Assembly (NCBI RefSeq): GCF_004634425.1 | Contig: NZ_SBJL01000003.1 | Coordinates: 372,001-436,000 of the forward strand | Reading direction: 5' to 3' | Length of the DNA stretch: 64,000 bases | From: Vitreimonas flagellata | Lineage (GTDB): Bacteria; Pseudomonadota; Alphaproteobacteria; Caulobacterales; Aquidulcibacteraceae | Shown: in pieces, positions 27,916 to 44,965 of the stretch | How positions within the stretch are numbered: position 1 is the stretch's first letter | How the letters are laid out: each line of letters begins with the position of its first letter | Notes under the pieces: generated by a model | Told to the model about the DNA's origin: nothing | The model's database searches: none | Seen by the model: the letters and a program-made list of their open reading frames with translations, nothing else | Position numbers and translations under genes: made by a program

Positions 27916-28043
27916 GTCCCCCTCTACGCAGGTTTGCCACGCACCCGCAACATCGATCACGTCCGGGTGAAGCGATGTACTTCTGGTTGCCGCCAGTCTG
28001 CGCGCGGGCTTAGCGTTTTGGCAGGGCAATAGGGGAGGGGCTT

Positions 28044-28772: not shown

Positions 28773-28782
28773 GGCGCAAGCA

Positions 28783-28810
28783 AAAGGGCGCGACTTGCAT
28801 CGCGCCCTTT
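28783..28810. terminator. Bidirectional terminator hairpin
   Basis: aaagggcgcg (28783-28792) pairs with cgcgcccttt (28801-28810). It sits between the stops of convergent 28044-28772 and folE, with A and T runs on its two flanks. Confidence 0.75.
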
Positions 28811-28832
28811 GAGAAATTCCTATTGGGTGGCC

Positions 28833-29447
28833 TCACCCATACCCCGCCAGCTTCAGGAAGCGGTTGCGGAGTTCGACATTCTCTTTGAACTCGCCGGTGA
28901 ATTGGGTGGTGACGGTGGTGACGTCCTTGTGGTGGACGCCGCGCGTGCTCATGCACTGGTGTTCGGCGTCGATCAGCACAGCCACGCCGCGCGGCTTCAA
29001 CGTGTGCTCGATCGCTTCGGCGATCTGGATGGTCATCGTCTCTTGCGTCTGCAGGCGCTTGGCAAAGATTTCGACCACGCGCGCGATCTTGGAAATGCCG
29101 ACCACGGCTTCGGTCGGCAGATACGCGACATAGGCCTTGCCGAGGAACGGCGCGATGTGGTGCTCACAATGGCTCTCCACGTCGATCTTCTTCAGCATGA
29201 CGATGTCGTCATAGCCGCCGACGTCTTCGAACACGCGGTTGAGTTCGGTGGTGGGGTCCTGGTCGTAACCGCCGAACCATTCGCGATAGGCTTCGATGAC
29301 GCGCTTGGGGGTGTCCTTCAGGCCCTCACGGTCCGGGTCGTCGCCGGCCCAGGCGATCAAGGTGCGCACCGCTTCCATCGCCGCTTCGCGCGACGGACGC
29401 TTTTGCGCAGCCTCGGCGGGCGTACGCCATTTCAAAATTTCACTCAT
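28833..29447 (-). CDS. folE: GTP cyclohydrolase I
   Basis: FolE opens the GTP ring to make dihydroneopterin triphosphate for folate and pterins. The 204-residue protein has the zinc ligands in [11 protein letters not shown] (Cys94, His97) and in [10 protein letters not shown] (Cys near 165), the substrate loop [20 protein letters not shown], and the C-terminal block TTQFTGEF. This is the type IA enzyme. It is 20 kb from folP, so the pathway is not clustered. The divergent region to cysS is 184 bases. Confidence 0.97.
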
Positions 29448-29631
29448 GAGGAGGTCTTAAGTCCTTAGTCTGAGGGACGGAGGTCGAGCCGGGAGGGTTC
29501 TGCTGATGGTACGCACCAGACGGACACCCGGACTTAACGCCCGCCCGAAATTCACCTCAGGCGACGGAGCCCTGAAACTTGGCCCCGATGGGATATGGAG
29601 TGTAGCACGGCCCGCCGCTAGAACCCAAATC

Positions 29632-31008
29632 ATGCAAATTACGCTGACCAATACGCTCACGCGGCGCAAAGAGCCGTTTACCCCCGCTGATCCAAGCCGG
29701 GTGACGCTCTATGTCTGCGGGCCCACGGTCTATTCCTACGCGCACATCGGCAATGCCCGCCCGCCTGTCGTGTTCGATGTGCTCTTCCGCCTTCTGCGGT
29801 TGACCTATGGTGAACGTGCGGTGATCTACGCCCGCAATTACACCGACATCGACGATCGCATCATTGCTGCGGCGATGGCCGGCAACGTGCCGATCGAAGA
29901 GATCACGCGGAAGTTCGAGCGCATCTACGAAGAGGACACGCGCGCGCTTGGCGTGCTGAGCCCGACGCTGACGCCGCGCGCGACGGCGCACGTCGATGAC
30001 ATGATTGCGCTGATCGAGCAGCTCTTGGCGAAGGGCGCGGCGTATCGGGCCGAGACCGGCGTCTATTTCTCCGTCGGCGCCGACGGAGATTACGGCAAGC
30101 TCTCGGGACGCTCGCAAGACGAGCTGAAAGCCGGCGCGCGCGTCGAAGGCGAGGACGATAAGCGTCACCCTTCCGACTTCGCGTTGTGGAAGACGGCGAA
30201 GCCGGGTGAGCCGTCTTGGGAGGCGTCGTTCGGCGCGGGACGACCGGGTTGGCATATCGAATGCTCGGCGATGATCGAAAGCGAGTTGGGTTCGCCGATC
30301 GACATTCATGGCGGCGGCATCGATCTCATCTTCCCGCATCACGAAAACGAAATCGCGCAGAGTGAAACCGCACATGGCCATGCGCTGGCGCGCGTGTGGA
30401 TGCACAACGGCTTCCTGACGATGGACAAGGAGAAGATGTCCAAATCGGTCGGCAACATTATCACGCCGCGCGAATTGCTGGAGCAAGGCTGGCAGGGCGA
30501 GACGATCCGGTGGGCCCTGCTCAGCGCGCATTATCGCGCACCGCTCGATTGGAGCGATGATCTCTTGAAGCAAGCGCAAGCGAGCTTGGATCGTTTGTAT
30601 GGCGCCGTACTTCGCTTGAAGGATGTGACTGCGGCTGAGGCGGCTGCGCCGTCAGCGTTTGTCGAAGCGCTTGCGGATGATCTCAACACGCCGGCCGCGA
30701 TCGCCGAGCTTTCAGCGCTGGCGACGGCGGCGAACATCGCCAAGAAGCCCGCTGATCAAGCGAAGGCCAAGGGCGAGCTGTTGGCGGCCGCGCATCTCAT
30801 GGGCGTGCTCCGCGAAGATCCCGAGCATTGGTTCAGAGCCTCGTTCGGCGAGCAGGCGGTCGAGATCGATCGCCTCGTGGCCGAGCGAGTCGCGGCGCGG
30901 GTGGCGAAAAATTATCCCGAGAGCGACCGTTTGCGTGACGAACTTGCCGCACGCGGCGTCGAAGTGATGGATGGCCCCAGCGGTTCGACTTGGCGGCGGA
31001 AGGGCTAG
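29632..31008 (+). CDS. cysS: Cysteinyl-tRNA synthetase
   Basis: This class I synthetase charges tRNA-Cys. Starting at ATG 29632 the N-terminus is MQITLTNTLTRRKEPF; the open frame extends 42 codons upstream with no synthetase character. Catalytic zinc Cys in LYVCGPTVYSYAHIGNARP, which also holds the HIGH motif, then zinc ligands in HIECSAM and HHENE, and the KMSKS motif in MDKEKMSKSVGN. The anticodon-binding DALR-like region ends the 458-residue protein. The 184 bases upstream contain no Cys-rich leader peptide. Confidence 0.97.
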   Translation: MQITLTNTLTRRKEPFTPADPSRVTLYVCGPTVYSYAHIGNARPPVVFDVLFRLLRLTYGERAVIYARNYTDIDDRIIAAAMAGNVPIEEITRKFERIYEEDTRALGVLSPTLTPRATAHVDDMIALIEQLLAKGAAYRAETGVYFSVGADGDYGKLSGRSQDELKAGARVEGEDDKRHPSDFALWKTAKPGEPSWEASFGAGRPGWHIECSAMIESELGSPIDIHGGGIDLIFPHHENEIAQSETAHGHALARVWMHNGFLTMDKEKMSKSVGNIITPRELLEQGWQGETIRWALLSAHYRAPLDWSDDLLKQAQASLDRLYGAVLRLKDVTAAEAAAPSAFVEALADDLNTPAAIAELSALATAANIAKKPADQAKAKGELLAAAHLMGVLREDPEHWFRASFGEQAVEIDRLVAERVAARVAKNYPESDRLRDELAARGVEVMDGPSGSTWRRKG

Positions 31009-31043
31009 GGGCTACCAAGGCCACGCAGAATCTGGGGAAATTG

Positions 31044-31556
31044 ATGAAGCGCTTTTTCGTCGCCGCGTTTGTGCTTGTGGTCGCCGCCTGTACGCCGCAG
31101 CCGGATACGAGCGAGGCGGAAGCCGTCATTCGCGATCTCTACGCGACGGTGGAAGAGCATATCGGGCGCGTCTCGACGCCGCTCGATGCGATCCCGATGA
31201 CGGATGAATTGGCGAGCCTGACCTCGCGCGCGCAGGTCGCAGCACTGGCGCGCAACGAGCCGTTCATCGAAGGCGACATCGCCGCCAATTGTCAAGATTG
31301 CACCAGCATCAGCGGTCTCGAAGTCGGCCCGCAAACTGGCCCGGAGCCTGTGCCGGCGGCGGAAGGCCATGTAATGTTGGAGGCGCGCTTCACGCTCAAC
31401 GGCAACGAGCCGCGCGCGGTGTTGTACGACATGGTGGAGACGCCGCAGGGCTGGCGCATCGACAACATTCTCACCGATGGCTTCAATTTGCGCACCGAAG
31501 CGCAATCGTATCTCGACGATAGCGCCGAGCCAGCGGACGAAACCCCGGCGCCTTAA
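31044..31556 (+). CDS. Lipoprotein, DUF3828-like
   Basis: 170 residues. The lipobox VVAAC lies at residues 12-16 of MKRFFVAAFVLVVAACTPQ. The mature part has EAVIRDLYATVEEHIG, a Cys pair (ANCQDCTS) and VLYDMVETPQGWRIDNILT, which resembles DUF3828/nuclear-transport-factor-2-like lipoproteins that end in a GWRIDDI strand. ATG 31044 lies 36 bases after cysS, with gggg upstream, so it may share the cysS transcript. Its stop overlaps the stop of the convergent GFA-like gene by four bases. Confidence 0.7.
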   Translation: MKRFFVAAFVLVVAACTPQPDTSEAEAVIRDLYATVEEHIGRVSTPLDAIPMTDELASLTSRAQVAALARNEPFIEGDIAANCQDCTSISGLEVGPQTGPEPVPAAEGHVMLEARFTLNGNEPRAVLYDMVETPQGWRIDNILTDGFNLRTEAQSYLDDSAEPADETPAP

Positions 31557-32029
31557 GCGCGCTTGCGTTTGCCGCGCGTCCAGACGACGCCCGGAAAGCC
31601 TTTGAGGGCGGAGAGTGCTTCGCCCTGATAGGTCCATTCCTGCATATGATCGATGCCGATGTGATAGCGCGGTTCGCGGCCTGTGCCGCTTGAGATGAGC
31701 GCGCGCGGCACGTTAATCATTTGCGGCGCGTGTGCGCGTTCATACGCGATGGGCGTGCCGCATTGACTGCAGAAGCTGCGCACGTGGCCTGTCTCTGGCT
31801 CTGTGAAGCGCGAGATTTCATCCTCGCCCTTCGTGATGCCAAAGCGGCTGCGATAACAGCCGACATAGGTGGCGTAAGCGGCGCCGTGGGCGCGGCGTGA
31901 ATTGGCAGTGTGGTCATGCCAAGCCCAGCGCGCCGGCACGCCGATCTCGAACTGCACCGCGCCGCACAGGCATTGGCCCGCTGCGCGGCTGGGGCCGCGG
32001 CGTTTCTCGGCGGCTTTGGCTGGTTTCAC
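31553..32029 (-). CDS. GFA-like (glutathione-dependent formaldehyde-activating fold) protein lacking the catalytic zinc cysteines
   Basis: The 158-residue protein aligns by eye with the GFA fold: GQCLCGAVQFEIG (CxC), a GAAYATYVG block, RSRFGITKGEDEISRF and SFCSQCGTPIAYE (CxxC). The CxC and CxxC pairs, which hold the structural zinc in Gfa, are kept. The central CHCxxCR that holds the catalytic zinc is replaced by WHDHTANSR, so Gfa-type activity is unlikely. A basic tail (RGKRKRA) ends it. It may be a binding protein or a repurposed enzyme. Confidence 0.75.
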   Translation of the reverse strand: MKPAKAAEKRRGPSRAAGQCLCGAVQFEIGVPARWAWHDHTANSRRAHGAAYATYVGCYRSRFGITKGEDEISRFTEPETGHVRSFCSQCGTPIAYERAHAPQMINVPRALISSGTGREPRYHIGIDHMQEWTYQGEALSALKGFPGVVWTRGKRKRA

Positions 32030-32137
32030 GCGTCTGCTCCCTCGTGGGTCGGTTTATGGCGGGCTGAGCTGGGCGTCGCGCCTTGAAGATGGCGCCCGAG
32101 GTGACTAAGCCCGTCAGCCTGGGGACAAGGAATTTTC

Positions 32138-32596
32138 ATGCGCGTTCTGATATTTGCGGCGCTCGTAGCGCTGGCGGCTTGTGCGACCGGCGGGGGCGAA
32201 AGCTCCAGTGATCAAGGCCGCAATGGCGATTTCCCGTTCCCGGTTGAGCGCGGCTCGGCCTTGCCGCCGCCGACGGGCGCTGGCGCCAGTCAAAGCGCGC
32301 CACCGCAGGGCGCGGGCGCCGGCGGGCTCGATTTCGGCCAATGGCGCGCAGCGGACCCCGTAGTGTACGCGCCTGCGTTCCAAACCCGCGTGCGCGAGCG
32401 TTTCGCTGGGCGCGATCGCGCCGCGATTAAGACGGATCTCGAAGCCAATGGGTTCCGTTGCGAAGATGGCGACCGCCTCGATTGCCGCATCGAGATTATG
32501 GAACAGCAGTGCGCTGTGGATTGGTATGTCGTATTAGAGCGCAACCGGGCCGAGCCAATCGCGGGCTTCGACCGCATGTGCCTCGGCGCAAGATAA
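32138..32596 (+). CDS. Small cysteine-containing lipoprotein, family member 1
   Basis: 152 residues with lipobox ALAAC (MRVLIFAALVALAACATGG), then a Ser/Pro/Gly linker and a conserved domain: DFGQWRAADP, RVRERFAGRDRAAIKTDLEANGFRCEDG, DCRIEIMEQQCAVDWYVVLE, AGFDRMCLG. It is related to the genes at 32636 and 34081: each has an R(F/Y)-rich helix, a (D)L…xGF(R/N/E)C step and two or three later Cys, ending in a RxC. Role unknown; the paired cysteines suggest disulfides in the periplasm. Confidence 0.68.
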   Translation: MRVLIFAALVALAACATGGGESSSDQGRNGDFPFPVERGSALPPPTGAGASQSAPPQGAGAGGLDFGQWRAADPVVYAPAFQTRVRERFAGRDRAAIKTDLEANGFRCEDGDRLDCRIEIMEQQCAVDWYVVLERNRAEPIAGFDRMCLGAR

Positions 32597-32635
32597 GAAC
32601 ACGCGCCACATAGTTGGCCAAAGGGATGGAATGAG

Positions 32636-33082
32636 ATGAAGCGTTTTGCGATCGCTGCGGCGTTGATGCTGGCTTTGGCTGCCTGTGAGACGACATCCGT
32701 GGGCGGTGTGTCGACGCCGTCTGGCCCGGCGAGCATTCCATCCTCGCCGCTGGAGCTGGGCGATTGGCGCAACGCAACGCCGGCTGCGACGCTTGCAGCG
32801 TTCGAACGCAATGTCGCGAGCCGCTATGGCGCGGGCTTGGAGCTGAGCGCGGTGTCGGGCGATCTGCGTCGCCAGGATTTCAATTGCGCGGCGGGTCCGC
32901 AGAACGGGCGCGGCGATCCGCCGGAGCAAGTCTGCCGTCGCACCACCAGCGCAAGCGGCTGCACGCACACATGGCAGGTCCATCTCTTCGATGAAGGCGG
33001 CAATGGCCGCTTGGCGCGTACGCGCGGGCTCTATGATCGCCGCTGCGGCAGCGATGGTCTGCTCGGCGGTCCTGGCCGCTAA
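32636..33082 (+). CDS. Small cysteine-containing lipoprotein, family member 2
   Basis: 148 residues, lipobox ALAAC in MKRFAIAAALMLALAACETTS. The mature part shares ELGDWRNATP with DFGQWRAADP of the gene upstream, followed by VASRYGAGLELSAVSGDLRRQDFNCAAG, CRRTTSASGCTHTWQVHLFD and YDRRCG, i.e. the same order of Cys and aromatic residues. It lies 39 bases after member 1 in the same direction and they are probably one transcript and an old duplication. Confidence 0.68.
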   Translation: MKRFAIAAALMLALAACETTSVGGVSTPSGPASIPSSPLELGDWRNATPAATLAAFERNVASRYGAGLELSAVSGDLRRQDFNCAAGPQNGRGDPPEQVCRRTTSASGCTHTWQVHLFDEGGNGRLARTRGLYDRRCGSDGLLGGPGR

Positions 33083-33589
33083 TTACGGATGCGGATGCGC
33101 CTCTGTCGGTGCGGTGTTGAGATAGCTCGCGACATCCGGCGGCTCGAGCGTGAGCATCGGCGCGAGGCGCCAATTCAGGATTACGTACTTTTCGCGCAGG
33201 CGCTCGAACGCTTCGCGGCCAGTGATGACCGCGCGCGGCGCAGCGGGGCCCATCACTTCGGCGAGGCGCGCGGCTGAGGTGAACACGAAGCCGGCTTGGC
33301 GGCCTTCGCCGAGCGCCAGCAGGCGCGGCGGCGCGTCGTCGAGATTGGATTGCAGCGCGAGCGCGACTTGGCTGTCGAGCAGCAGGCGGCGGAATTCGGG
33401 ACGCGCTTCTTCGTCGTGCAGCGCCGCGATAAAGGCGCGCTCAAGATCGTTGGCGGGCTCGATTTGGCGCGGGCCGGTGTTGGCGGGCGGGCGTGCGGGC
33501 GTCGTGCCGCTGGGCTGTTGCTGCGCCCAGGCCAACACGGGCCAAGCCACGCCAGCACTCGCGGCGATCAGGAATGAACGTCGTTGCAT
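33083..33589 (-). CDS. Tat/Sec-exported SseB-like protein
   Basis: MQRRSFLIAASAGVAWPVLAWAQ is a twin-Arg-type signal peptide (QRRSFL), and the ATG at 33589 opens exactly there; the frame continues 15 codons upstream without matching features. The mature part, from LERAFIAALHDEEARPEFRRLLLDSQVALAL to RAVITGREAFERLREKYVILNWRLAPMLTLEPPDVASYL, resembles the SseB N-terminal fold, in which a G(R/S)EAFER-like helix is followed by the GxxLxP(G)D(V/I) loop. The function of exported SseB-like proteins is unknown. Its stop abuts that of the convergent lipoprotein gene. Confidence 0.65.
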   Translation of the reverse strand: MQRRSFLIAASAGVAWPVLAWAQQQPSGTTPARPPANTGPRQIEPANDLERAFIAALHDEEARPEFRRLLLDSQVALALQSNLDDAPPRLLALGEGRQAGFVFTSAARLAEVMGPAAPRAVITGREAFERLREKYVILNWRLAPMLTLEPPDVASYLNTAPTEAHPHP

Positions 33590-33644
33590 CGGGGCAGCCT
33601 CCGTGGGCTTTGCATCGCCGTCAAGGAAGGCCACATAAAGGCGG

Positions 33645-34079
33645 ATGGAAGACCTCTACCACCCCCGGATTTTGGAACTGGCCGCCGACATGCCCCATGT
33701 CGGCCGGTTGGAAGCGCCGGATGGCGCGTCGACCAAGGTCAGCCGCGTCTGCGGCTCGGTCGTGACGGTAGAACTCAAGCTGAAAGATGGTGTGGTGAGC
33801 GAGATCGCCGTGCACCCGAAGGCCTGCGCTTTGGGACAGGCGGCGACCGGCGTGCTGGCGATGCACGCAATTGGGGCGAGTCCGCAGGAAATTCGCGAAG
33901 CGCGCGACGGCTTGCGCGCGATGCTGAAAGAGGGCGCACCTCCGCCGCAAGGCCGCTTCTGGGAACTCCGGCATTTGGAAGGCGTGCGCGAATATCCGCC
34001 GCGCCATACCAGCACGATGCTGGCGTTCGAAGCCGCTGTTGAAGCTTTGGATCAAGCCGCGCGCGCGAAGGCCAGCTGA
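33645..34079 (+). CDS. IscU/SufU-like Fe-S scaffold protein, incomplete cysteine set
   Basis: 144 residues. The opening MEDLYHPRILELAADMPHVGRL and Cys36 (SRVCGSVVTVEL) and Cys61 (HPKACALGQAATGVLAM) match U-type scaffolds. The residue usually Asp after the first Cys is Ser (CGS), and the third Cys near REYPPRHTSTMLAFEA is missing. It may therefore hold a cluster differently or serve another role. It opens a run of co-directional small genes: the lipoprotein at 34081 starts two bases after its stop. Confidence 0.82.
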   Translation: MEDLYHPRILELAADMPHVGRLEAPDGASTKVSRVCGSVVTVELKLKDGVVSEIAVHPKACALGQAATGVLAMHAIGASPQEIREARDGLRAMLKEGAPPPQGRFWELRHLEGVREYPPRHTSTMLAFEAAVEALDQAARAKAS

Positions 34080-34080
34080 G

Positions 34081-34410
34081 ATGGCGCGCTGGGGGATTCT
34101 CGCTTCTGTCTTGGTGTTGTGGGCCTGCGCAAGTGCGCCGGTGCGTGCGCCGTTGGATGTGAACGCGTTGATCGCAGACGCGCCGGCTTATGTGAGCGCG
34201 CGCTACGCGCCGCGTGACTTGCCGGCGGCGTTGGTGAGCGATCTCGGCGCGGCAGGCTTTGAGTGTGTGCATCACGCAACGATGAGCGAGTGCTCCAAGA
34301 CGCAACAAGCGTTTGCGTCGTGCTTCGATATTTCGATCGTGCGGATTTCGGCGCATGCGCCTGTGTATGCAGAGCGCATGCGCCGCTGCTTGGGCGTGCG
34401 GCCGGGCTGA
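34081..34410 (+). CDS. Small cysteine-containing lipoprotein, family member 3
   Basis: 109 residues, lipobox-like LWAC in MARWGILASVLVLWACASA. The mature part ALIADAPAYVSARYAPRDLPAALVSDLGAAGFECVHH, SECSKTQQAFASCFDISIV and MRRCLG keeps the family pattern of the members at 32138 and 32636 (xGFxC, two further Cys, terminal RRC) but lacks the long linker. The stop TGA overlaps the ATG of the next gene (TGATG), so translation is probably coupled. Confidence 0.62.
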   Translation: MARWGILASVLVLWACASAPVRAPLDVNALIADAPAYVSARYAPRDLPAALVSDLGAAGFECVHHATMSECSKTQQAFASCFDISIVRISAHAPVYAERMRRCLGVRPG

Positions 34411-34892
34411 TGCATATTCGCGCTGCGACGGACGCCGACGCCAATGCGATCTGGGCGATCCTTGAGCCGATCATCCGCGAAGGCGAGACACTGACTTTGC
34501 CGCGCGACATGAGCCGGGAGGCGGCGCTCGCCTATTGGTGTGCGCCGGCGCATGAGCTGAGCGTGGCGGAGCGCGATGGCGCTGTGCTCGGCGTTTCATA
34601 TTTGCGCGCAAATCAGCAGGGGCCGGGCGCGCACGTGGCGAACGCCGGCTACGCGACGGCGCCGCAAGCGCGCGGGCAAGGCGTGGCGCGCGCGTTGCTG
34701 CTGCATACGCTGGAACGGGCGAAGGCGCGCGGGTTTCGGGCGATGCAGTTTAACATCGTGATTTCGACTAACGAGCGCGCGGTGAAAACCTGGGTGGCGC
34801 ATGGGTTCGAGATCGTGGGGTGTTTGCCGGGCGCGTTTGAACATCCGCGCTTGGGCTTCGTCGATGCGCTGGTGATGTATCGCGCGCTTTGA
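34410..34892 (+). CDS. GNAT-family N-acetyltransferase
   Basis: 160 residues: MHIRAATDADANAIWAILEPIIREGETLTLPRDMSR is the N-terminal strand/helix common to YhhY/Pat-like acetyltransferases, and motif A is HVANAGYATAPQARGQGVARALLLHTLERAKARGFRAMQFN with the R/QxxGxA acetyl-CoA loop. The C-terminus WVAHGFEIVGCLPGAF follows family usage. The acceptor is unknown. ATG 34410 overlaps the preceding stop; the frame upstream of it reads through the lipoprotein gene and is not coding. Confidence 0.87.
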   Translation: MHIRAATDADANAIWAILEPIIREGETLTLPRDMSREAALAYWCAPAHELSVAERDGAVLGVSYLRANQQGPGAHVANAGYATAPQARGQGVARALLLHTLERAKARGFRAMQFNIVISTNERAVKTWVAHGFEIVGCLPGAFEHPRLGFVDALVMYRAL

Positions 34893-34907
34893 GCTAGGCT
34901 CGTGTGC

Positions 34908-35312
34908 ATGTCTGCATCACCGCCCCTGAGGCATCCGGATGGCAAAGCGCTGCGCAAGGCGGCGTTGGCGTATCCCGACACGGTCGAGGATTTTCCTTGG
35001 GGCCATAGCGCGTTCAAGGTCGGCGGCAAGAAGGTGTTTATGTTCATGGGCGGCGACGAAGACGGCGGCTTTTCGTGCTCGATGAAGCTGCCGTTTCGCA
35101 ATGAGGAAGCGCTCAAAGTGAAGGGCGCGAAGCCGACAGAATATGGCTTGGGCCGCGCGGGTTGGGTGACGTTCCAGTTTAGCGCCAAGGCCAAGCCGCC
35201 GATGGCGAAACTGACGGATTGGCTGGATGAGAGCTGGCGTGCGGTAGCGCCGAAGAAGCTCTCCGCCGCGTATGCGCCGCCGGCGCCGCCGAAGAAGCGG
35301 AAGGTGAGCTGA
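34908..35312 (+). CDS. MmcQ/YjbR-family protein
   Basis: 134 residues with the MmcQ/YjbR fold: LRKAALAYPDTVEDFPWGHSAFKVGGKKVFMFM (residues about 14-46), SMKLPFRNEEALKV, GWVTFQF and the ending (L)TDWLDESWRAVAPKKL. The fold is CyaY-like, described as DNA-binding-like in some members; function is unclear. A basic Pro/Lys tail (APPAPPKKRKVS) is added. Last gene of the apparent run from 33645. Confidence 0.8.
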   Translation: MSASPPLRHPDGKALRKAALAYPDTVEDFPWGHSAFKVGGKKVFMFMGGDEDGGFSCSMKLPFRNEEALKVKGAKPTEYGLGRAGWVTFQFSAKAKPPMAKLTDWLDESWRAVAPKKLSAAYAPPAPPKKRKVS

Positions 35313-35388
35313 CGTCCATAATTCACTTGGCCCTCCAGGGCGCGGGCGCTAGCGTCCGGGCCGCGCGTGGGGCGTTAGGGGAATTTCG

Positions 35389-35685
35389 ATGCTCAGACTG
35401 GTTTTGCTGCTTTTGGTTGTCGCGGGCGTCGCTGGCTATTTCACCAAGCCCGACGAGCCGGCCATGCGCGCCGCCGCCGAGCAGGTGCTGAACGACCCGC
35501 AGAACATCTCCGAAGGCTTCGAGACGATCGGCGCGGCGTTCGCCGGCACGAATGCGTATTCGGATTATTACGTCGCCTCGAAATATGTCGTCTCGATCGG
35601 CGATCGCCCGATCGTCGAGTGCTGGGGCGCGTTCACACAAGCGCAATGCAAGCGCGTCGAAGCGCCGGCTGAAGCAGCGCAATAG
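35389..35685 (+). CDS. Small membrane-anchored hypothetical protein
   Basis: 98 residues with one N-terminal hydrophobic segment (LRLVLLLLVVAGVAGYF, residues 2-18) that serves as anchor or signal. The rest contains a helical EPAMRAAAEQVLNDPQNISEGFETIG stretch and a C-terminal strand pair DYYVASKYVVSIGDRPIVECWGAFTQAQC with two Cys. The SD is ttaggggaa before ATG 35389. Unrecognised family. Confidence 0.65.
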   Translation: MLRLVLLLLVVAGVAGYFTKPDEPAMRAAAEQVLNDPQNISEGFETIGAAFAGTNAYSDYYVASKYVVSIGDRPIVECWGAFTQAQCKRVEAPAEAAQ

Positions 35686-35703
35686 GGCGCTACGAGTGTC
35701 CCG

Positions 35704-36051
35704 GTGAGATGGCTCCTCTCTGTATTGTTGTTTGTGGTGGCGTCATGCGCAGAGCGTGAGACGACCTACTACCACATCTATTCAACGAACGCGGCTGAGG
35801 CTGATGGGGACGCGTGGACTGAAGCTCTTATTGGGCTGTTCCAACATTATACCGACGGCGCATGTGGCGACGAGATGCCGATCATTGAGGACTTCAACAT
35901 CTACACGCCGTCGTGTGGGCTAAGCGAGGAACAGCTCGCTGAGGAATTGGCGTTTCTGCCGCCGGGGAGCTGGGCGATTTCGATCGTCCGACAGTCCGTT
36001 TATGCTCGGACCATAGAACGCAGCGAGCGAATGGTTTTGCGGCGACACTGA
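35704..36051 (+). CDS. Small hypothetical lipoprotein
   Basis: 115 residues starting with a GTG at 35704; lipobox VVASC in MRWLLSVLLFVVASCAERE. The mature part has TYYHIYSTNAAEADGDAW and NIYTPSCGLSEEQLAEELAFLPPGSWAISIVRQ. Codon usage is AT-richer than neighbouring genes (for example 35821-35960), so it may be a recent arrival or under weak constraint. No family recognised. Confidence 0.55.
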   Translation: MRWLLSVLLFVVASCAERETTYYHIYSTNAAEADGDAWTEALIGLFQHYTDGACGDEMPIIEDFNIYTPSCGLSEEQLAEELAFLPPGSWAISIVRQSVYARTIERSERMVLRRH

Positions 36052-36062
36052 CTTGCTCTTGG

Positions 36063-36091
36063 TTGAGCCCTTGGGGCGAACCATGTTATAG
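36063..36091 (+). promoter_or_regulatory. Promoter of the Thr-leader/yidD/thrS operon
   Basis: ttgagc (36063-36068) and ttatag (36086-36091) are separated by 17 bases, a good housekeeping promoter. Transcription should begin six to eight bases after the -10, at 36097-36099, which coincides with the ATG of the leader peptide. Confidence 0.6.
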
Positions 36092-36098
36092 GCGACTT

Positions 36099-36137
36099 AT
36101 GCAACGGCTCACGTCCACCACGACGACTACTTATTAA
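36099..36137 (+). CDS. Threonine-rich leader peptide of the yidD-thrS operon
   Basis: The 12-codon frame encodes MQRLTSTTTTTY and stops at TAA 36135-36137. Six of 12 codons are Thr (ACG, ACC, ACG, ACG, ACT, ACT), five of them consecutive. It lies 78 bases before yidD and 408 before thrS, directly behind a good promoter. A threonine run ahead of threonyl-tRNA synthetase is the classical layout of ribosome-mediated attenuation, in which low charged tRNA-Thr stalls the ribosome and changes downstream RNA folding. The predicted transcription start falls on the ATG, so the peptide is likely translated from a leaderless 5' end, as known for the trpL leader of rhizobia. Confidence 0.8.
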   Translation: MQRLTSTTTTTY

Positions 36138-36140
36138 AGC

Positions 36141-36212
36141 CGGCGGCGCGGGATCGGGCGCGCCGTAGCGGCGGCGTTGCGCCCCGGTCAGATCAACCGA
36201 AAACCTGTTTTT
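36141..36212 (+). promoter_or_regulatory. Candidate attenuator region between Thr leader and yidD
   Basis: Hairpin A pairs cggcg(g)cgc (36141-36149) with gcgcgccg (36158-36165). Hairpin B, cgccg-tag-cggcg (36161-36173), uses the same 36161-36165 bases and so excludes A. A third pairing, ggcgc (36157-36161) with gcgcc (36179-36183), is also possible. A ttttt run lies at 36208-36212 but has only weak pairing just before it, so termination is not clear and control might instead act on yidD translation. Confidence 0.45.
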
Positions 36213-36215
36213 GTG

Positions 36216-36548
36216 ATGTCGCCGAGCTTACCAGCACGGGGCCTTTTGGGCCTTATCCAGCTCTATAAATGGACGCTCTCGCCCCTGATCGGGCGCGATT
36301 GCCGCTATTTGCCGACCTGCTCGTCTTATGCGGCGGATGCGATCCGCAAGCATGGCGCGTGGGCGGGGAGCTGGATGGCGACGGCGCGGCTCTGCCGGTG
36401 TCAGCCCTGGGGCGGGCACGGCTGGGATCCTGCACCGGAGCAAAAGCCGCGCGCCGCATGGTACGCCCCGTGGCGGCTAGGGGATTGGAAAGGCGGCTAT
36501 CGCGCGCCGCCACACAACAACGACGAATCCGATAAGAGCACATCATGA
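36216..36548 (+). CDS. yidD: Membrane protein insertion efficiency factor YidD
   Basis: YidD is a small, amphipathic, membrane-associated protein that aids YidC-dependent insertion. [40 protein letters not shown] (residues about 8-47) carries the family's conserved Cys and PTCS-Y block, followed by [15 protein letters not shown]. The ATG at 36216 is chosen; it has no clear Shine-Dalgarno. The stop overlaps thrS (ATGA at 36545), so thrS translation is coupled to yidD, and both fall under the Thr leader. yidD normally accompanies rnpA/rpmH, so this partnership with thrS is different from the textbook arrangement. Confidence 0.92.
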
Positions 36549-38479
36549 GTATTTCTCTGCAATTTCCCGATGGCGCCGTGCGTGAGTACGAGGATGGCGC
36601 AACGCCGCTTGCTGTGGCCGAGGGCATTTCCAAGGGCCTGGCGAAGAAGGTGGTCGCCGCCAAGATCGATGGCGCGTGGTGGGATTTGACGCGACCGCTC
36701 GAAGGCGGCGGTAAAATCGAACTCGTCATGCGCGATAGCGCTGATGGGTTGGAAGTGTTGCGTCACGATGCGGCGCACGTTTTGGCGCAGGCGGTGCAGG
36801 AGTTGTTTCCCGGCACGCAAGTGACGTTCGGCCCGGTGACGGAGGACGGCTTCTATTACGATTTCGCGCGCGACGAGCCGTTCTCGACGGACGATTTCCA
36901 GAAGATCGAAAAGCGCATGCGCGAGATCGTGGATGCGGACCTGCCGATCATTCGCAAGGTCTGGGAGAAGGACGCCGCGATCGCGCACTTCCGCTCCATC
37001 GGCGAAATCTACAAGGCCGAGACGATCGATGAAGTGATCAAGCCGGGCGAGCCGATCACGATCTATTCGCATGGCGATAAATGGGGCGATCTCTGCCGCG
37101 GGCCGCACCTGCCGAGCACGGGTCGGTTGGGCAAAGCCTTCAAGCTGATGAAGCTTGCGGGCGCCTATTGGCGTGGCGATCAGAAGAACCAACAGCTGCA
37201 ACGCATCTACGGAACGGCCTGGGCCGATGAGAAGCAGCTTGAGGAGTATCTGAAGCGCCTCGAGGAAGCCGAGAAGCGCGACCACCGCAAACTCGGCCGC
37301 CAGATGGATCTCTTCCATATGCAGGAAGAGGGACGCGGCATGGTGTTCTGGCACGAGAAGGGCCTGACGCTGTGGCGCACGATCGAAGCCTATATGCGTC
37401 GCCGCTTGGAGAAAGCGGGGTACGTCGAAGTGCGCACGCCGCAAGTGCTCGACCGCGTGTTCTGGGAAAAATCAGGCCACTGGGACAAGTATCGACCGAA
37501 CATGTTCGTGTGCGAGACGGTGGAAGGCGAAACGCTGTCGCTGAAGCCGATGAATTGCCCTGGCCACGTGCAGATCTTCAAGTTCGGGCAGAAGAGCTAT
37601 CGCGATCTGCCGCTGCGCATGGCCGAGTTCGGCGCGTGCCATCGCTACGAGCCGTCAGGCTCGCTGCACGGCCTGATGCGCGTGCGCGCGTTCACGCAGG
37701 ACGACGCGCACATCTTCTGCCGTGAAGACCAGATCGAAGAAGAGACGACGCGCTTCATCCAGCTTGCCGCATCGATTCACGCCGATTTCGGCATGGCGAG
37801 CGATAAGATCGCGTTGGCGACGCGCCCAGAAATGCGCGTCGGCACGGATGAATTCTGGGACAAAGCCGAAGCGCAAATGCTGAACGCTGCGCGCGCGGCG
37901 GGCGTGGAGCCGGTCATCGCGGAAGGCGACGGCGCGTTCTATGCGCCGAAGCTCGACTTCTCGGTGAAGGACGCGATCGGCCGCGAATGGACGATCGGCA
38001 CGATCCAGCTCGATTACCAGCTGCCGGATCGGCTCGATGCGGAATATGTCGGCGAAGACGGCGCCAAGCATCGCCCGGTGATGTTGCACCGTGCGATCTT
38101 GGGCTCGCTTGAGCGCTTCATCGGCATTCTGATCGAGAACGTCGCGGGCGCGTTTCCGCTTTGGCTGGCGCCGACGCAGGTCGTGGTGGCGACGATTACG
38201 TCTGACGCCGATGGCTACGCGCAGGACGTCGCGGCGGCGATGAAGCAGGCGGGGCTGCGCGTGGAGCTCGATCTGCGCAACGAAAAAGTCGGCTACAAAA
38301 TCCGTGAGCATTCGCTGGCGAAGATCCCAGTGATCGCTGTAGTCGGCCGCAAGGAGGCGGAGGAGCGCAAGGTCGCGCTGCGTCGCTTCGGCAGCCAGGA
38401 TCAGAGCGTGCTCGGTCTGGATGAAGCGCTGGCCGCACTCGCCGATGAGGCGACGCCGCCGGATTTGAAGCGGGCGTAA
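36545..38479 (+). CDS. thrS: Threonyl-tRNA synthetase
   Basis: This class II synthetase charges tRNA-Thr and edits Ser-tRNA-Thr. The 644 residues contain an N-terminal TGS domain ([28 protein letters not shown]), the editing domain with [12 protein letters not shown] (HxxxH) and [15 protein letters not shown], the catalytic core with [39 protein letters not shown], and the C-terminal anticodon-binding domain with [22 protein letters not shown]. The zinc ligands Cys/His/His are at MNCPGH and later. A hairpin terminator follows. It is preceded by a Thr-rich leader peptide and yidD. Confidence 0.98.
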
Positions 38480-38482
38480 GAA

Positions 38483-38512
38483 TCGGGCCGTTGGCGTAAG
38501 CGAACGGCCCGA
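38483..38512 (+). terminator. Hairpin after thrS
   Basis: tcgggccgtt (38483-38492) pairs with aacggcccga (38503-38512) around ggcgtaagcg, four bases after the thrS stop. The stem has 10 base pairs with no clear T-run, so termination may need another factor. Confidence 0.65.
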
Positions 38513-38634
38513 ATTCGCTAAATCAGCTGTAACATCCGCGTGTTGTCCAGACTCGGACACACGCGACCCTAGACGCCGCCCTATATGCCATACAGGATGT
38601 GACTCGGAGACGGCTCCGGGGGCGGAGACAAAGG

Positions 38635-39537
38635 GTGGACAAGTTCCCCTCTCGCGAAAGATCAGCGACGGCGACGCTTGAGCCGCGCGTGACCGCGATT
38701 GTCGTCGCGCGTGCTGTCGCCACAAACGCCACCGGCCAATCGACGCTTGATCTGTGCTTACGCAGCGCGCTGTCCGAGCCGTGGGTGGATGATCTGGTAA
38801 TCGTGGATCAGGCCAATGCGCCGGCGGTGTCGTCGGCGCTGCGGGCGCTGCAATTGGATCGCCGCGATGTGCGCGTGGTGGTGGCCGATGCGCGCATGAG
38901 TGCGGCGGCGGCTGCGAACCTTGGCGTCGCGCAGGCGCGTGGGCGCTGGTTGTTGTTTCTGGATTCGGACGTCGTGCTGCAGCGTGGCGCGGTGCAGCGC
39001 ATGGCGACGTCCGCCAATGGCGCCGCGGCGCCGTGGATCGTCGGCGGGCGGCTGACCGACCTTGAAGGGCGTGAGAAGCGCGCCGCGCGCGGCGGTGCGC
39101 TCAACACGTTCTCAGCGCTCGCGGTGGCGATGGGTTTGCCCGGCGTGAAGCGTGCGCGCGGCAAGCGCAAATCATCCAAGCCGAGTGCGGCGGCGCCTGT
39201 GGCGTCCGTGTCGGGCGCGTTCATGCTGATCGGGCGCGAGGATTTCAGTGCGCTGGGCGGATTTGACGAAGCCTATGTGAGCGATGCGGCGGATTTGGAT
39301 CTATGCAAGCGCGCAGCGGATGCTGGCGGTTCGGTGCTGTTGCAAGCTGAAGCGTCGGGCGTGCAATTCGAGCGCCAGCGCAAAGGCCGGCGGCAAGCGC
39401 AAGGCTTGGCGCGGTTTGCCGTGAAGAGCGCGAAGACGCCGTTGGAAAGAATGTTTGCGCTGTTTGCGGGGCCAGCGATCGGCGCTTTGATCGGCTTGCG
39501 CGACGCTATTGGTGGGCGTCGGGGGGGGCGTCGCTAA
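38635..39537 (+). CDS. Family 2 glycosyltransferase (GT-A fold)
   Basis: An inverting nucleotide-sugar glycosyltransferase: VTAIVVARAV opens the Rossmann-like GT-A fold, RGRWLLFLDSDVVLQRGAV holds the DxD-type DSD motif, and GAFMLIGREDFSALGGFDEAYVSDAADLDLCKRAADAG is the acceptor/ED block of rhamnosyl/WcaA-like enzymes. GTG 38635 (MDKFPSRER) is preferred; GTG 38599 is an in-frame alternative with 12 extra residues. The 3' end overlaps the convergent ArnT-like gene by 32 bases. Confidence 0.82.
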   Translation: MDKFPSRERSATATLEPRVTAIVVARAVATNATGQSTLDLCLRSALSEPWVDDLVIVDQANAPAVSSALRALQLDRRDVRVVVADARMSAAAAANLGVAQARGRWLLFLDSDVVLQRGAVQRMATSANGAAAPWIVGGRLTDLEGREKRAARGGALNTFSALAVAMGLPGVKRARGKRKSSKPSAAAPVASVSGAFMLIGREDFSALGGFDEAYVSDAADLDLCKRAADAGGSVLLQAEASGVQFERQRKGRRQAQGLARFAVKSAKTPLERMFALFAGPAIGALIGLRDAIGGRRGGRR

Positions 39538-41230
39538 GCTTTCGTACGCGGCCGATATGCAAGGCCGTGTTCTCGCCGCGCCCTAAAGCAATGCCGCGCG
39601 CCGCCGCATCGACTTCCTCATAGCCGAGATCGCGCGCTTGCAGCAGCGCCAGCGTGCGTTCAAGCACACGGCCTTCGATCACAAGGCTGTCGCCGGGCTC
39701 AGCTTGCGCGGCCATTTCTTCCGGCTGCACCATGCGGATCGAGGTGCGGGTGAGGAAGATGAGGCTGGGTTGGCTGTAGCCGACGACCCAGAACGGCTCC
39801 TGATCGCGCGGCATCATGCGCGCGCGCGTGAGCGCAGCGACCGCCTCTTGGCTCACAAAGAGCGAGCGCGCTTCCGGCAACGTGCGTTCGCGCAGCGAGA
39901 AGGAAAGCGCCAGCGCGCAAGCGATGAGAATGCCGGCGCGCGCGGTTGGGCGCTTAGCCAGCGAAAGCCCAACGATCGAGGCGATGACGACCAGCGCGCC
40001 GATGATGCCGGCGCTGAGCGCGCGGCGGAAGTCGGCGTCGAAGCCGCCAGGCATGTAAGTCGCGACGAACGCGGTGAGGGCGACGATGAGTCCGCCGAAC
40101 AAGGCAAACAACACAGCGCCGAGCGGATGCATGGTGCGCCATTGCTTCATGCGCATGGCCATCAGGCCGGTCGCGCACAAGAGCGCAATCGCGGGGTAAG
40201 CCGGCAGCGTGTAGTGGACGAGCTTGGTCGGGAAGAGTTCGAACAGCACGAAGGTCGGGATCGCCCAGCAGAGTAGAAAGCGCAAAGCTGCGTGGGTTTC
40301 GTCGGTGCGCGGGGCGCGGATGGCGGCGAAGCTGATGCGCGCGGCGGCCGGAAGTGCGTACGTCGCCGGGAAAATCAGCAGCGGCAGAAGTAGCAGATAA
40401 TAGCCGGGGAAGCCGCTATGCGAGTGATCCGCGCCGGCGACTTTGGGGCCGAGTTCGTTGGCGAGAAGCTCGGTGTAGAATGCACCATTCGTGACGATGC
40501 CGATGGAGATGAGCCAAGGCAGCGTGATCGCGAGCGCGAGCAGCGGCCCAGGCCACCAGAGTAGCGGCTTCATCCATGCCGCCTTACGTTCCCAAGCATA
40601 GAGCGCGCCGAGCGTGAGCGCGGCGACGAGCGCGGTGATCGGCCCCTTGATCAAGGTGCCCGCGCCGATCGCCGCCCAGAACACCAAGCTCATCATGCGT
40701 GGGCGCGGCTTGCCGGCATAAAGTTGCGCGAGAGCGGCGACCGCGAGCGTGGTGAAGCCCACCATCACGGAATCTGTTTTCGCGATCATGCCTTCGAGGC
40801 TTGCGAGCAAGCCTGTCGCGAAAAGCCCTGCGCCGATCAGTGCAGTGCGATGCGGCAGCAGCGCGGCGCCAGCCCACATCGTCGCCAGCGCTGCGAGCGC
40901 GAGGCCAAGTGCTGAGGGAATGCGATAGGGCCAGATCGTGTTGAGCTTCGGCGTCAGCGGCTCGAACACATGCACGGACGCCGCTTGCAGCCAATGAATG
41001 CCGATCGGCTTTCGATTGCGGTCGCGATCCTGCAGGCGGATGCGGACGTAATCGTCGCTCTCGACCATCTGCCGCGTGGCTTGGGCGAAGCGCGCCTCAT
41101 CGATATCGAGCGGGGGAACCTTGGTTGCGCCAATGAGGCCGGACGCCAAAGCGATCAGCGCAATCAGCACATAGCCCCGCCAGCCCCGCGTGAATTGCTG
41201 GACCAGTGAAGGGGGCGGCGATTCCGTCAT
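39506..41230 (-). CDS. ArnT-like integral membrane glycosyltransferase (GT39/GT83)
   Basis: Lipid-linked-sugar glycosyltransferases of this type move aminoarabinose or related sugars from undecaprenyl phosphate onto lipid A or proteins. The 574 residues have a large N-terminal periplasmic-loop acidic pair in DIDEARFAQATRQMVESDDYVRIRLQDRDRNRKPIGIHWLQA (about 42-83), as in ArnT/PMT enzymes, and roughly a dozen membrane segments through residue about 430. A soluble C-terminal domain of about 110 residues follows. The start is ATG 41230. Together with two GT2 genes it forms a local envelope glycan set. Confidence 0.86.
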   Translation of the reverse strand: MTESPPPSLVQQFTRGWRGYVLIALIALASGLIGATKVPPLDIDEARFAQATRQMVESDDYVRIRLQDRDRNRKPIGIHWLQAASVHVFEPLTPKLNTIWPYRIPSALGLALAALATMWAGAALLPHRTALIGAGLFATGLLASLEGMIAKTDSVMVGFTTLAVAALAQLYAGKPRPRMMSLVFWAAIGAGTLIKGPITALVAALTLGALYAWERKAAWMKPLLWWPGPLLALAITLPWLISIGIVTNGAFYTELLANELGPKVAGADHSHSGFPGYYLLLLPLLIFPATYALPAAARISFAAIRAPRTDETHAALRFLLCWAIPTFVLFELFPTKLVHYTLPAYPAIALLCATGLMAMRMKQWRTMHPLGAVLFALFGGLIVALTAFVATYMPGGFDADFRRALSAGIIGALVVIASIVGLSLAKRPTARAGILIACALALSFSLRERTLPEARSLFVSQEAVAALTRARMMPRDQEPFWVVGYSQPSLIFLTRTSIRMVQPEEMAAQAEPGDSLVIEGRVLERTLALLQARDLGYEEVDAAARGIALGRGENTALHIGRVRKLSDAPPDAHQ

Positions 41231-41350
41231 GGAAACCGCCCATAACCCGGCAAAATGACTGTGTCTTGACGGCGCCCCTCAGGCGCGCGCTCTCGCCTCA
41301 GGGCGCCGAAGCGGCTAAGAGGGCCGCCTTCCTGGCCCCGGGGACAGCTC

Positions 41351-42082
41351 TTGCCCGAGACGATCGAATTCAGTGTTGTCGTGCCGGTCCACGACGAAGC
41401 CGGTAACGCCGCCAATCTGGCGCGTGAAATCGCCGGCGTGCTCGATGGCCGTTCCTACGAAATGATCTTCGTGGACGATGCGAGCCGCGACGACACGCGC
41501 GCTGAACTGGCTGCTTTGAAAGCGGAATTACCGGCGCTGCGGATCGTGGGGCACCGCAAGAATTCGGGCCAAAGCCGGGGCGTGCGCACGGGCGTGATTG
41601 CCGCGCGTGCGCCCATTGTGGGCACGCTGGACGGCGACGGCCAGAACGATCCGGCCGACCTGCCGCGCCTCTACGCCAAGCTGACGCGCGCCGATGCGCC
41701 TGCAAACCTCGGCATGGTCGCGGGCAAGCGCGCCAAGCGCCAGGACAGCTGGAGCAAGCGCGTCGCCTCCCGTGTCGCCAACAATATTCGCAAGGCCGCG
41801 CTCAACGATGGCGCGGATGACAGCGGTTCCGGCGTCAAGGTGTTCAAAAGGGAGGCGTTTTTGCTTCTTCCCTATTTCGACCACATGCATCGTTTCATGG
41901 CCGCACTGATGCTGCGCGAAGGCTATGCAGTCGAGTTTTTAGAGGTTAACCATCGTCACAGGGGCGCCGGGCGCTCGAAGTACACGAACCTAGGCAGGCT
42001 CGCCGCCAACATGACGGACCTGTGGGGTGTAATGTGGCTTCAGAGCCGGGCGCGGTCTCCTGGGGGTACGGACGAGCTATGA
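41351..42082 (+). CDS. Dolichyl-phosphate-mannose-synthase-like glycosyltransferase (GT2)
   Basis: 243 residues beginning with a TTG at 41351 behind ggggac. FSVVVPVHDEAGNAANLAREI, YEMIFVDDASRDDT and VGTLDGDGQNDPADLP (DxD) match polyprenyl-phosphate sugar transferases such as ArnC/DPM1; GADDSGSGVKVFKREAF, HRFMAALMLREGYAVEFLEVNHRHRGAGRSKY are the acceptor-binding part. Unlike ArnC it has no C-terminal membrane helices. The product would be a lipid-linked sugar used by an ArnT-like enzyme, which lies divergently next door. Confidence 0.88.
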   Translation: MPETIEFSVVVPVHDEAGNAANLAREIAGVLDGRSYEMIFVDDASRDDTRAELAALKAELPALRIVGHRKNSGQSRGVRTGVIAARAPIVGTLDGDGQNDPADLPRLYAKLTRADAPANLGMVAGKRAKRQDSWSKRVASRVANNIRKAALNDGADDSGSGVKVFKREAFLLLPYFDHMHRFMAALMLREGYAVEFLEVNHRHRGAGRSKYTNLGRLAANMTDLWGVMWLQSRARSPGGTDEL

Positions 42083-42171
42083 ACGACCGTGTAGATCCAG
42101 GCGAACGCATAGCGCTTCAAACGGCGGCGACGCGGGGGCGTCGAGCAGGCACGCAACAGCAGGGGAGTCCC

Positions 42172-42612
42172 ATGGGGGCGATTTTCAACGTCTTTCCGCT
42201 GATCCTTATCCCGGTTCTGACCTACAATGTCTGGGCCTTCGGGGCGACAGCGGCCGAGAGCGGCGATGGCGCCGGCGTACGCCGTCACCTCAACACGCCA
42301 TGGCTGGAAATTCCCATGGCCTCCGGCGCGGAATGGGTCGTCACCTTCGGCGACGTGATGGTGCTGCTCGCACTCATCCTGCTCTTCGTTGAGCTGCTGA
42401 AATCAACGTCGACCGGCACGGCGGCGATCTTCAATCACGCGCTGTCGATGCTCGTGTTCATCATCTGCTTGGTCGAGTTTCTGCTCCACCCGGCGTTCGC
42501 CACCAGCGCGTTCTTCATCATTCTGGTGATGGCGCTCCTGGATGTGCTCGCCGGTGTCGTGGTGACGATCATCTCGGCCCGCCGCGACGTCGAGTTCGCG
42601 GGCCAGCATTAA
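42172..42612 (+). CDS. Hypothetical membrane protein, four membrane segments
   Basis: 146 residues starting at ATG 42172 behind caggggag; an ATG at 42079 overlapping the previous stop would add a polar 31-residue stretch. Hydrophobic segments: about 3-22, 60-78, 88-108 and 110-132. A polar loop with PWLEIPMASGAEWVV lies between the first and second. Family not recognised. It is followed by a palindromic repeat element. Confidence 0.72.
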   Translation: MGAIFNVFPLILIPVLTYNVWAFGATAAESGDGAGVRRHLNTPWLEIPMASGAEWVVTFGDVMVLLALILLFVELLKSTSTGTAAIFNHALSMLVFIICLVEFLLHPAFATSAFFIILVMALLDVLAGVVVTIISARRDVEFAGQH

Positions 42613-42624
42613 GCTCGTTTCATG

Positions 42625-42733
42625 CTCCCCCGCTTGCGGGGGAGTTCTCGCGTCAGCGACTGAGGGGGCGTTTGTGCGCGCACTTGCCCCCCACGCTTCG
42701 CTGCGCTCAGCACCTCCCCCGCAAGCGGGGAGG
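42625..42733. repeat. C-rich palindromic repeat element, intergenic copy
   Basis: Outer hairpins: ctcccccgcttgcgggggag (42625-42644) and cctcccccgcaagcggggagg (42713-42733). Between them are tcagcgactgagggggcg and a cccccacgcttcgctgcgctcag segment, the same parts seen inside mutL and at 60.7 kb. It lies 13 bases after the membrane protein gene and could also act as a transcript-end structure. Confidence 0.85.
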
Positions 42734-42868
42734 ATGGCCGTCACAGGCACCACATTCCCAAAGCTAACGCGATTGAGAAGTCGAGCCAGCGGGCGAATCG
42801 GGGGAGGATGGCGGCCATGATCGGAGCGGACCTGCAGGTTCGGCGCCGGTTTGAACGTGGGTGGATCG

Positions 42869-43201
42869 ATGTCGCTTTTTTTTGACGCCGATTGGTTCGA
42901 CGCCAAGCTTGGTGAACGCGGGCTGGACCGGGGCGCACTGGCCGAGGCGGCTGGCATCGAACGCGCCGATCTGCATGCGATCTATGTAAACGAGCGCGCG
43001 GCAAGCGCGGCGGAACTAGATGCATTCGCTCGCGTGCTTGGCGCCGAGATCGTCGAAGTCACGCTGCGCAGTGGCGTCGCGACACGTGATGCCGCGCCGC
43101 GCGAAGACGCGGCGTCGCGGATCGAAAGCATCGAAGCACGGCTGGACGCCATCGACAGCTGGCTCGAAGAGTTCGAGCGCTCGACCAAGAAGAGCGCTTA
43201 A
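42869..43201 (+). CDS. Helix-turn-helix (XRE-like) protein
   Basis: 110 residues from ATG 42869; SD-like gggtgg lies upstream. FDAKLGERGLDRGALAEAAGIERADLHAIYVNERAASAAELDAFARVLG (residues about 9-57) has the spacing of an XRE/Cro-type HTH. The second half, RIESIEARLDAIDSWLEEFERSTKK, is a coiled coil that could mediate dimerisation. Regulatory targets unknown. It ends a few bases before the convergent small gene 43198-43431. Confidence 0.7.
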   Translation: MSLFFDADWFDAKLGERGLDRGALAEAAGIERADLHAIYVNERAASAAELDAFARVLGAEIVEVTLRSGVATRDAAPREDAASRIESIEARLDAIDSWLEEFERSTKKSA

Positions 43202-43431
43202 GCTTTTAGGTTCACCACGATGCCGCGGCGCGGCGTCAGTGTCGGCGCTGCATAGCTATGCGTGCATGTGGTTTCCGGCCGAGCGATCTGGTTGACGAGC
43301 GTGGCCGCGAACAGCGGGTCGAGCCGGTCGCACGTGGCGCGACGATCGCTCTTGCGGCGTTCACCGCGGCGTTGTTCGCCGATTTCCTCGAACTCGGCGT
43401 CGAGTGCGTGGGGGTGAGCCCGTTCCTCCAT
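43198..43431 (-). CDS. Small conserved-looking hypothetical protein
   Basis: 77 residues. A basic stretch GEQRRGERRKSDRRATCDRLD is followed by DPLFAATLVNQIARPET and a tail ending in LTPRRGIVVNLKA. The RR(x)ERR(x)DRR run followed by a (F/L)FAAxLVxQ helix is a pattern I associate with short alphaproteobacterial proteins of unknown role. An overlapping plus-strand frame (43258-43470) has no such pattern. The start ATG 43431 has only a weak Shine-Dalgarno. Confidence 0.45.
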   Translation of the reverse strand: MEERAHPHALDAEFEEIGEQRRGERRKSDRRATCDRLDPLFAATLVNQIARPETTCTHSYAAPTLTPRRGIVVNLKA

Positions 43432-43498
43432 AGGCTCGCCGCTGCATCGGGCGTGCCAAACGGAAATTAACCGCTATCGTTCGCGCAGGGAGAAAACC

Positions 43499-44939: not shown

Positions 44940-44965
44940 CGAACAGCGCAGGGAGGCGCAAACCC

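Follow-up and report, generated by a model that had tools for sequence, protein, structure and literature searches.

The locus raises the question of how the expression of a threonyl-tRNA synthetase is controlled when another gene stands between the synthetase gene and the probable regulatory region. In the window (the whole stretch of 64,000 nucleotides of Vitreimonas flagellata DNA analysed here), thrS (36545..38479, + strand) codes for a threonine–tRNA ligase of 644 aa (TIGR00418, 702.1 bits). It is preceded by yidD (36216..36548, + strand), which codes for a membrane protein insertion efficiency factor of 110 aa (TIGR00278, PF01809), and the start of thrS overlaps the stop of yidD by 4 nt. 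Upstream of yidD lies a very short threonine-rich frame, followed by sequence that can fold in two ways. Does this region sense threonine, and which of the two genes does it control? On the basis of the sequences, we consider it probable (about 0.78) that the region is a threonine-sensing leader switch, that is, a ribosome-mediated attenuator of thrS that would respond to charged tRNA-Thr.

The leader frame (36099..36137, + strand) reads ATG CAA CGG CTC ACG TCC ACC ACG ACG ACT ACT TAT TAA, which translates into M Q R L T S T T T T T Y (MQRLTSTTTTTY, then the stop). The ATG at 36099 and the 12-codon frame in which six residues are threonine had been pointed out in a sequence-only reading of this DNA, and both are read directly in the letters. 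When both strands and nested starts are counted, the window has 590 ATG frames of 6–30 codons, and the leader frame is the only one with at least six threonines in eight codons. The locus therefore has the feature that characterizes ribosome-mediated attenuation: cognate codons abound in a short frame that precedes a gene of the same amino-acid pathway.

The same reading proposed to look for the threonine run in related genomes, where it is indeed kept. We picked 51 loci in the family for the presence of the downstream hairpin described below, and in 50 of them an ATG frame adjoins this hairpin; in the exception (L149) there is no in-frame stop ahead of it. In all 50 frames exactly 1 nt separates the stop from the hairpin, and the last threonine codon is the penultimate sense codon, so that one codon and then the stop follow it. 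The choice of frames preferred threonine-rich ATG frames at most 8 nt from the hairpin, so the threonine content of the set is skewed upward, but this bias is no explanation for the identical register of the stop and of the last threonine codon. Nine leaders, all from genus g6, have only 1–3 threonine codons (one in L151, two or three in the other eight), in the same register as the others. The codon between the last threonine and the stop codes for 13 different amino acids over the 50 frames. This register, with the last threonine codon fixed and the next codon free, gives a near-direct view of selection on the position of the ribosome.

It could be argued that a chance low-complexity frame happens to lie beside an unrelated conserved RNA, since GC-rich DNA can yield short threonine-rich frames. 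The register is nevertheless identical in 50/50 frames, threonine is kept with all four third-position bases (65 ACC, 63 ACT, 62 ACG and 14 ACA in the family leaders) and the frame is unique in the window, so that the probability of this explanation is negligible. Another hypothesis is that the frame codes for a functional small peptide that acts in trans, the RNA structure serving something else. Leader peptides have been reported to act in trans, such as peTrpL of Sinorhizobium meliloti (available text of PMC7298713). Against this, the length of the peptide (5–23 residues among the chosen frames) and its sequence outside the threonine run are highly variable, while the register of the codons relative to the hairpin is fixed; we regard a peptide acting in trans as very improbable. 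Threonine sensing by a translating ribosome is the reading that we retain.

How would the ribosome reach this frame? The sequence-only reading proposed a promoter that places the start of transcription on the leader ATG, and the promoter-like sequence TTGAGC-17-TTATAG (36063..36091, + strand) has the appropriate layout: TTGAGC at 36063–36068, TTATAG at 36086–36091, a spacer of 17 nt and a gap of 7 nt between TTATAG and the ATG, which would put the start of transcription at or next to 36099. The comparison between relatives also supports it. The best TATAAT-like hexamer lies 6–8 nt 5' of the ATG in 38/50 loci (shuffled upstream sequence gives 17.6%), and none of the 50 loci has any of the listed Shine–Dalgarno-like words at −20 to −3 of the leader ATG (two of the 50 starts were shifted upstream by hand for these counts). 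A strict sigma-70 scan of 26000–45900 does not have this promoter in its list; what speaks for it is the comparison between relatives. The leaderless character of the frame, which the same reading had advanced, is backed by the hexamer spacing and by the lack of Shine–Dalgarno-like words, and the leader frame is apparently translated from the very first base of the mRNA. Leaderless mRNAs are common in Caulobacter, where 375 are reported (available text of PMC4117421). Leaderless initiation would be a further constraint on a leader-peptide switch.

Downstream of the frame, two hairpins share bases and are hence mutually exclusive, and both are conserved. The first, H1 (36139..36172, + strand), pairs 36139–36150 with 36159–36172 through 12 pairs, according to the pairing in our alignment A1 and to the RNAalifold consensus; it would be the ON state (anti-attenuator). 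The second, H2 (36152..36189, + strand), pairs 36152–36158 with 36183–36189, with additional inner pairs, as supported by covariation and by the masked folding described below; it would be the OFF state. Mutually exclusive hairpins were part of the sequence-only reading, which was right about their exclusion; the limits it gave them, 36141–36165 and 36161–36173, are only roughly right.

In alignment A1 (29 distinct rows), all 346 of the 346 cells of H1 are paired. The covariation support for H1 is thin, because 9/12 of its pairs are invariant and double changes occur in two pairs, on the strength of one row each, apparently the hand-copied row of L033. In the case of H2, 96.1% of the cells are paired, and its covariation score is reached by none of 500 shuffles and by no slid control; its number of double-change pairs (3) is matched by one slid control and reached in 9/500 shuffles. 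The AT-rich relatives form H2 with other base pairs. In a permutation test of H2-type pairing on 12 hand-picked representatives of 9 genera, the energies of the pairing between the loop and the downstream sequence beat all but 1 of 20000 permutations; taken singly, L035, L068 and L154 have an unremarkable pairing energy in this test. No match to Rfam (release 15) was found at 36060–36215, either at the gathering score or under permissive conditions.

Which of the two structures forms depends on how much of the sequence is available. When the first 38 nt are folded alone, H1 is obtained in 43/50 loci. When ten bases of the 5' arm of H1 are masked, which mimics a ribosome at the stop codon, the 72 nt that follow the leader fold best into an H2-type structure in 49/50 loci, and in separate masked folding a bridging helix is also found in 49 loci; the masked folds are strong in the GC-rich members. 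In L154, folding gives neither the H1 nor the H2 pairing. Without masking, the best folds of the 72 nt are mixed (H1-type in 22/50 loci, H2-type in 13, a third pairing in 14 and another structure in 1), the third pairing joining the 5' arm of H1 to the 3' region of H2, and the best fold of the window's own sequence changes with the length that is folded. The switch therefore leans on the order of folding and on the ribosome. The structures, the register and the masked folding are as expected for exclusive structures placed so that the location of the ribosome chooses between them, a choice that would be made in the cell.

The front edge of a bacterial ribosome lies approximately 15–16 nt past the first base of the P site, which allows the two states to be described. 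Transcription would begin on the leader AUG, as the spacing of the promoter suggests, and the ribosome would then translate the frame. Under a shortage of charged tRNA-Thr, the ribosome would stall on the threonine codons; with the last of them in the A site, it would extend over only about the first 2–3 nt of the 5' arm of H1, so that H1 could form, H2 would be blocked and yidD-thrS would be expressed. With plenty of charged tRNA-Thr, the ribosome would proceed to the stop codon, where it would cover about nine of the twelve bases in the 5' arm of H1, prevent H1 and let H2 form, and expression would be lowered. We infer the response to charged tRNA-Thr from this arrangement. With this geometry, an H2-off switch would work on the same principle as a classical attenuator, and we somewhat favor this polarity, with H1 on and H2 off, over the reverse.

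What would H2 do to lower expression? A classical attenuator has an intrinsic terminator, a hairpin followed by a U-tract, which this element lacks: the 8 nt that follow H2 contain 2.0 U on average, and at least 5 U in only 1/50 loci. It may be that, under the same threonine sensing, H2 nevertheless acts as an ordinary intrinsic terminator and does so in spite of its poor U-tract. A ten-pair hairpin 3' of the thrS stop (38483–38512, + strand) also has no T-run by eye, which is why termination without U keeps some plausibility; terminator-like sites with T-runs in 26000–45900 are not above shuffles (13 against 18.7 expected), and the strength of the masked folds in GC-rich members points the same way. 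In the AT-rich genus g20, however, where T-runs are cheap, there is no T-run 3' of H2, and AAAAGC.. or AACAGUUUU is found there instead. Considering this genus together with the low U content after H2, we hold an intrinsic terminator to be unlikely. Since H2 has no U-tract, intrinsic termination is probably not how expression is lowered; Rho-dependent termination, or a lower translation of the message in which yidD and thrS are coupled, is more likely.

The spacer between H2 and yidD (36190..36215, + strand) bears on this choice. It is G-poor across the genus of Vitreimonas flagellata (14.7% G against 35.1% in the yidD region, in 26 genus loci), it is 26–30 nt long in 26/27 genus loci (L027 could not be parsed), and no Shine–Dalgarno-like sequence was seen in it by eye. 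Such a spacer fits the loading of Rho or a non-Shine–Dalgarno start. One could imagine a translational switch, in which the choice between H1 and H2 alters initiation at the start codon of yidD, with an effect on thrS through coupling; the low G content of the spacer, its lack of a Shine–Dalgarno-like site and the 4-nt overlap of yidD and thrS, which is found in 22/50 loci, would suit it. On the other hand, H2 ends 26–30 nt before the AUG, which is outside the usual footprint of a start site, and the distance from H2 to yidD is larger in genus g6 (roughly 80–100 nt). We find this alternative rather doubtful, and keep to a threonine-sensing attenuator whose off step would more likely be Rho-dependent termination or reduced translation. 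The missing U-tract makes the locus a good case in which to ask how leader-peptide switches work when intrinsic termination is not used.

The element is widespread in the family. A search for YidD in 61 genomes (own, genus, family and order) gave matches in 57, the four others (G013, G016, G028 and G032) being incomplete family genomes; among the 30 loci for which DNA was obtained, the exact word GCCGGCGGCGCG is present in 29, and the remaining one (L033) has a diverged form of this word and an unchanged leader layout. R1, a covariance model made from 30 rows that contain H1, finds a match in 42 of the 45 genomes of the family. The three others are the genomes of L155 and L156, which have no threonine leader of the kind linked to H1 and H2, and G144. 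By eye, no such leader is present at four weak extra matches of R1 in the family (L153, L157, L158 and L159). Class-wide, R1 matched 6/289 genomes, namely the window's own genome and five weak matches (26.7–32 bits) that were judged by their R1 score alone.

Which gene is the target? The sequence-only reading had the leader set the expression of both ThrS and YidD. The order leader-yidD-thrS is indeed found in 50/50 family loci (seven offsets of more than 100 nt between yidD and thrS are probably frame or assembly problems), and since yidD lies between the leader and thrS, YidD is probably co-regulated. In one genus outside the family, however, a probable leader follows yidD. In g9, a genus from another family of the order, all nine loci read (L082, L088, L091, L093, L095, L096, L098, L107 and L108), of which a first-pass screen had flagged 7, have a leaderless-looking frame between yidD and thrS that ends in LT[TPA]RTR[RQ]G[AT] before the stop. 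These frames are probable threonine leaders. They are followed by a long region in which, by eye, most of the loci have a similar GGGTGGGA...GGTAAAG..CGCGTTAAGC-like element before thrS. Elsewhere in the order outside the family, in the 60 thrS upstream regions covered out of 63, threonine-rich frames beyond those of g9 were unconvincing.

No separate threonine leader was seen in the f3 loci. There, the gene upstream of yidD ends in a conserved CGAACT, which by eye codes for R-T followed by a few mostly Ala or Gly residues (L102, L110, L112–L118, L123–L126, L130 and L133). Judging from its C-terminal sequence, this upstream gene resembles the SufU-like gene of the window, and in several of these loci a varying hairpin-like sequence lies just 5' of the yidD start.

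The survey was extended to the class, with thrS upstream DNA from 80 of 105 genomes (two pieces were shortened). Five threonines in six codons occur in 3/80 regions, while any other residue reaches this density in at most one on the sense strand; in the antisense control, threonine gives 0 and the maximum is 2, for Arg. A density of four threonines in six codons is found in 5/80 regions and is unexceptional, as higher counts are obtained for Arg, Ala, Pro, Ser and Leu. By eye, four of those five (L181, L187, L212 and L237) resemble threonine leaders upstream of thrS. The fifth, L224, was set aside as a threonine leader, its frame being far upstream of thrS. L212, from another alphaproteobacterial family, has a textbook threonine attenuator upstream of thrS at about 658–790, consisting of a leader (MFKRPTIETTATTTLLEGP, then the stop), an antiterminator arm at the end of the leader (GGAGGGTC) and a terminator followed by TTTTTT. 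These scattered threonine-rich leaders before thrS suggest either a repeated origin or an old, fast-evolving control.

Since the probable leaders of g9 sit between yidD and thrS in 9/9 loci, and threonine-rich leaders, as judged by eye, precede thrS in 4/80 regions of the class, thrS is the likely regulated target and yidD is probably a passenger under the same control. The conserved gene order of the family agrees with the joint control put forward in the sequence-only reading, and the position of the g9 leaders argues against yidD being more than a passenger. If the proposed control is true, the level of the membrane-insertion factor YidD would follow the charging of threonyl-tRNA. The complete picture is a family-wide leader RNA of Caulobacterales in which a leaderless threonine peptide toggles two hairpins, thrS is controlled via Rho or translation without an intrinsic terminator, and YidD tracks threonyl-tRNA charging; we propose this combination tentatively.

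Comparison with known systems helps to place the element. The leader of the enterobacterial thrABC operon likewise has a run of threonine codons and competing hairpins; unlike the yidD-thrS leader, it contains threonine and isoleucine codons, precedes a biosynthetic operon and uses an intrinsic terminator. In E. coli, thrS is not known to have a leader peptide and is controlled through a translational operator to which the ThrS protein binds; there too thrS is controlled by its own pathway, but by way of a protein-binding operator. Caulobacter crescentus belongs to the same order as the genome of the window. Autoregulation of thrS is mentioned in the available text of PMC2965389.

Among the closest published systems is thrL of Streptomyces lividans TK24, a leaderless frame of 18 residues with two threonines upstream of thrS (PMC8079986). 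Like the apparently leaderless frame before yidD-thrS, it is a leaderless threonine leader before thrS, with one hairpin and no U-rich sequence reported downstream; it differs in that it comes from another phylum and has two threonines, and the available text of that paper mentions neither exclusive hairpins nor yidD. The sequence-only reading had considered a threonine leader upstream of thrS with yidD in between to be non-standard: a leaderless one before thrS is published, but none with yidD between was found in the literature searched. In Alphaproteobacteria, uORFC-8-2 of Rhodobacterales is a cognate-codon uORF before a synthetase gene, cysS, for which ribosome-mediated attenuation is proposed (available text of PMC8632094). 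Its cysteine codons are inside the first stem and its consensus ends in a U run, as in an intrinsic terminator, while here the threonine codons precede the hairpin and there is no U-tract.

Other alphaproteobacterial leaders share part of these features. According to the available text of PMC10117765, trpL (rnTrpL) of Sinorhizobium meliloti is a leaderless leader frame, as the one before yidD-thrS appears to be, and is involved in attenuation, although for tryptophan, with a biosynthetic target and another RNA. A possible leader peptide of Sinorhizobium, SEP5, is likewise encoded by a small frame within a 5' UTR that has clustered threonine codons, but it has six threonine and three lysine codons, lies upstream of an aspartate dehydrogenase gene and comes with no mention of a structure in that text. 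In Caulobacter crescentus, a small leader CDS also precedes an aminoacyl-tRNA synthetase gene, in that case trpS, for tryptophan, and the available text of PMC4117421 does not mention an RNA switch. No description of the element or of a yidD-thrS leader was found in the literature searched, most subscription journals being outside it, and within that literature the conserved version of the leader before yidD-thrS appears to be undescribed. It is a testable example of probable control of an aminoacyl-tRNA synthetase by tRNA charging in Alphaproteobacteria.

Last, we note that the window contains two RNA elements of known families: a serC leader (RF00517) at 7431–7482 on the + strand, with 43.3 bits, and a chrB-b RNA (RF03086) at 54902–54951 on the − strand, with 45.6 bits.
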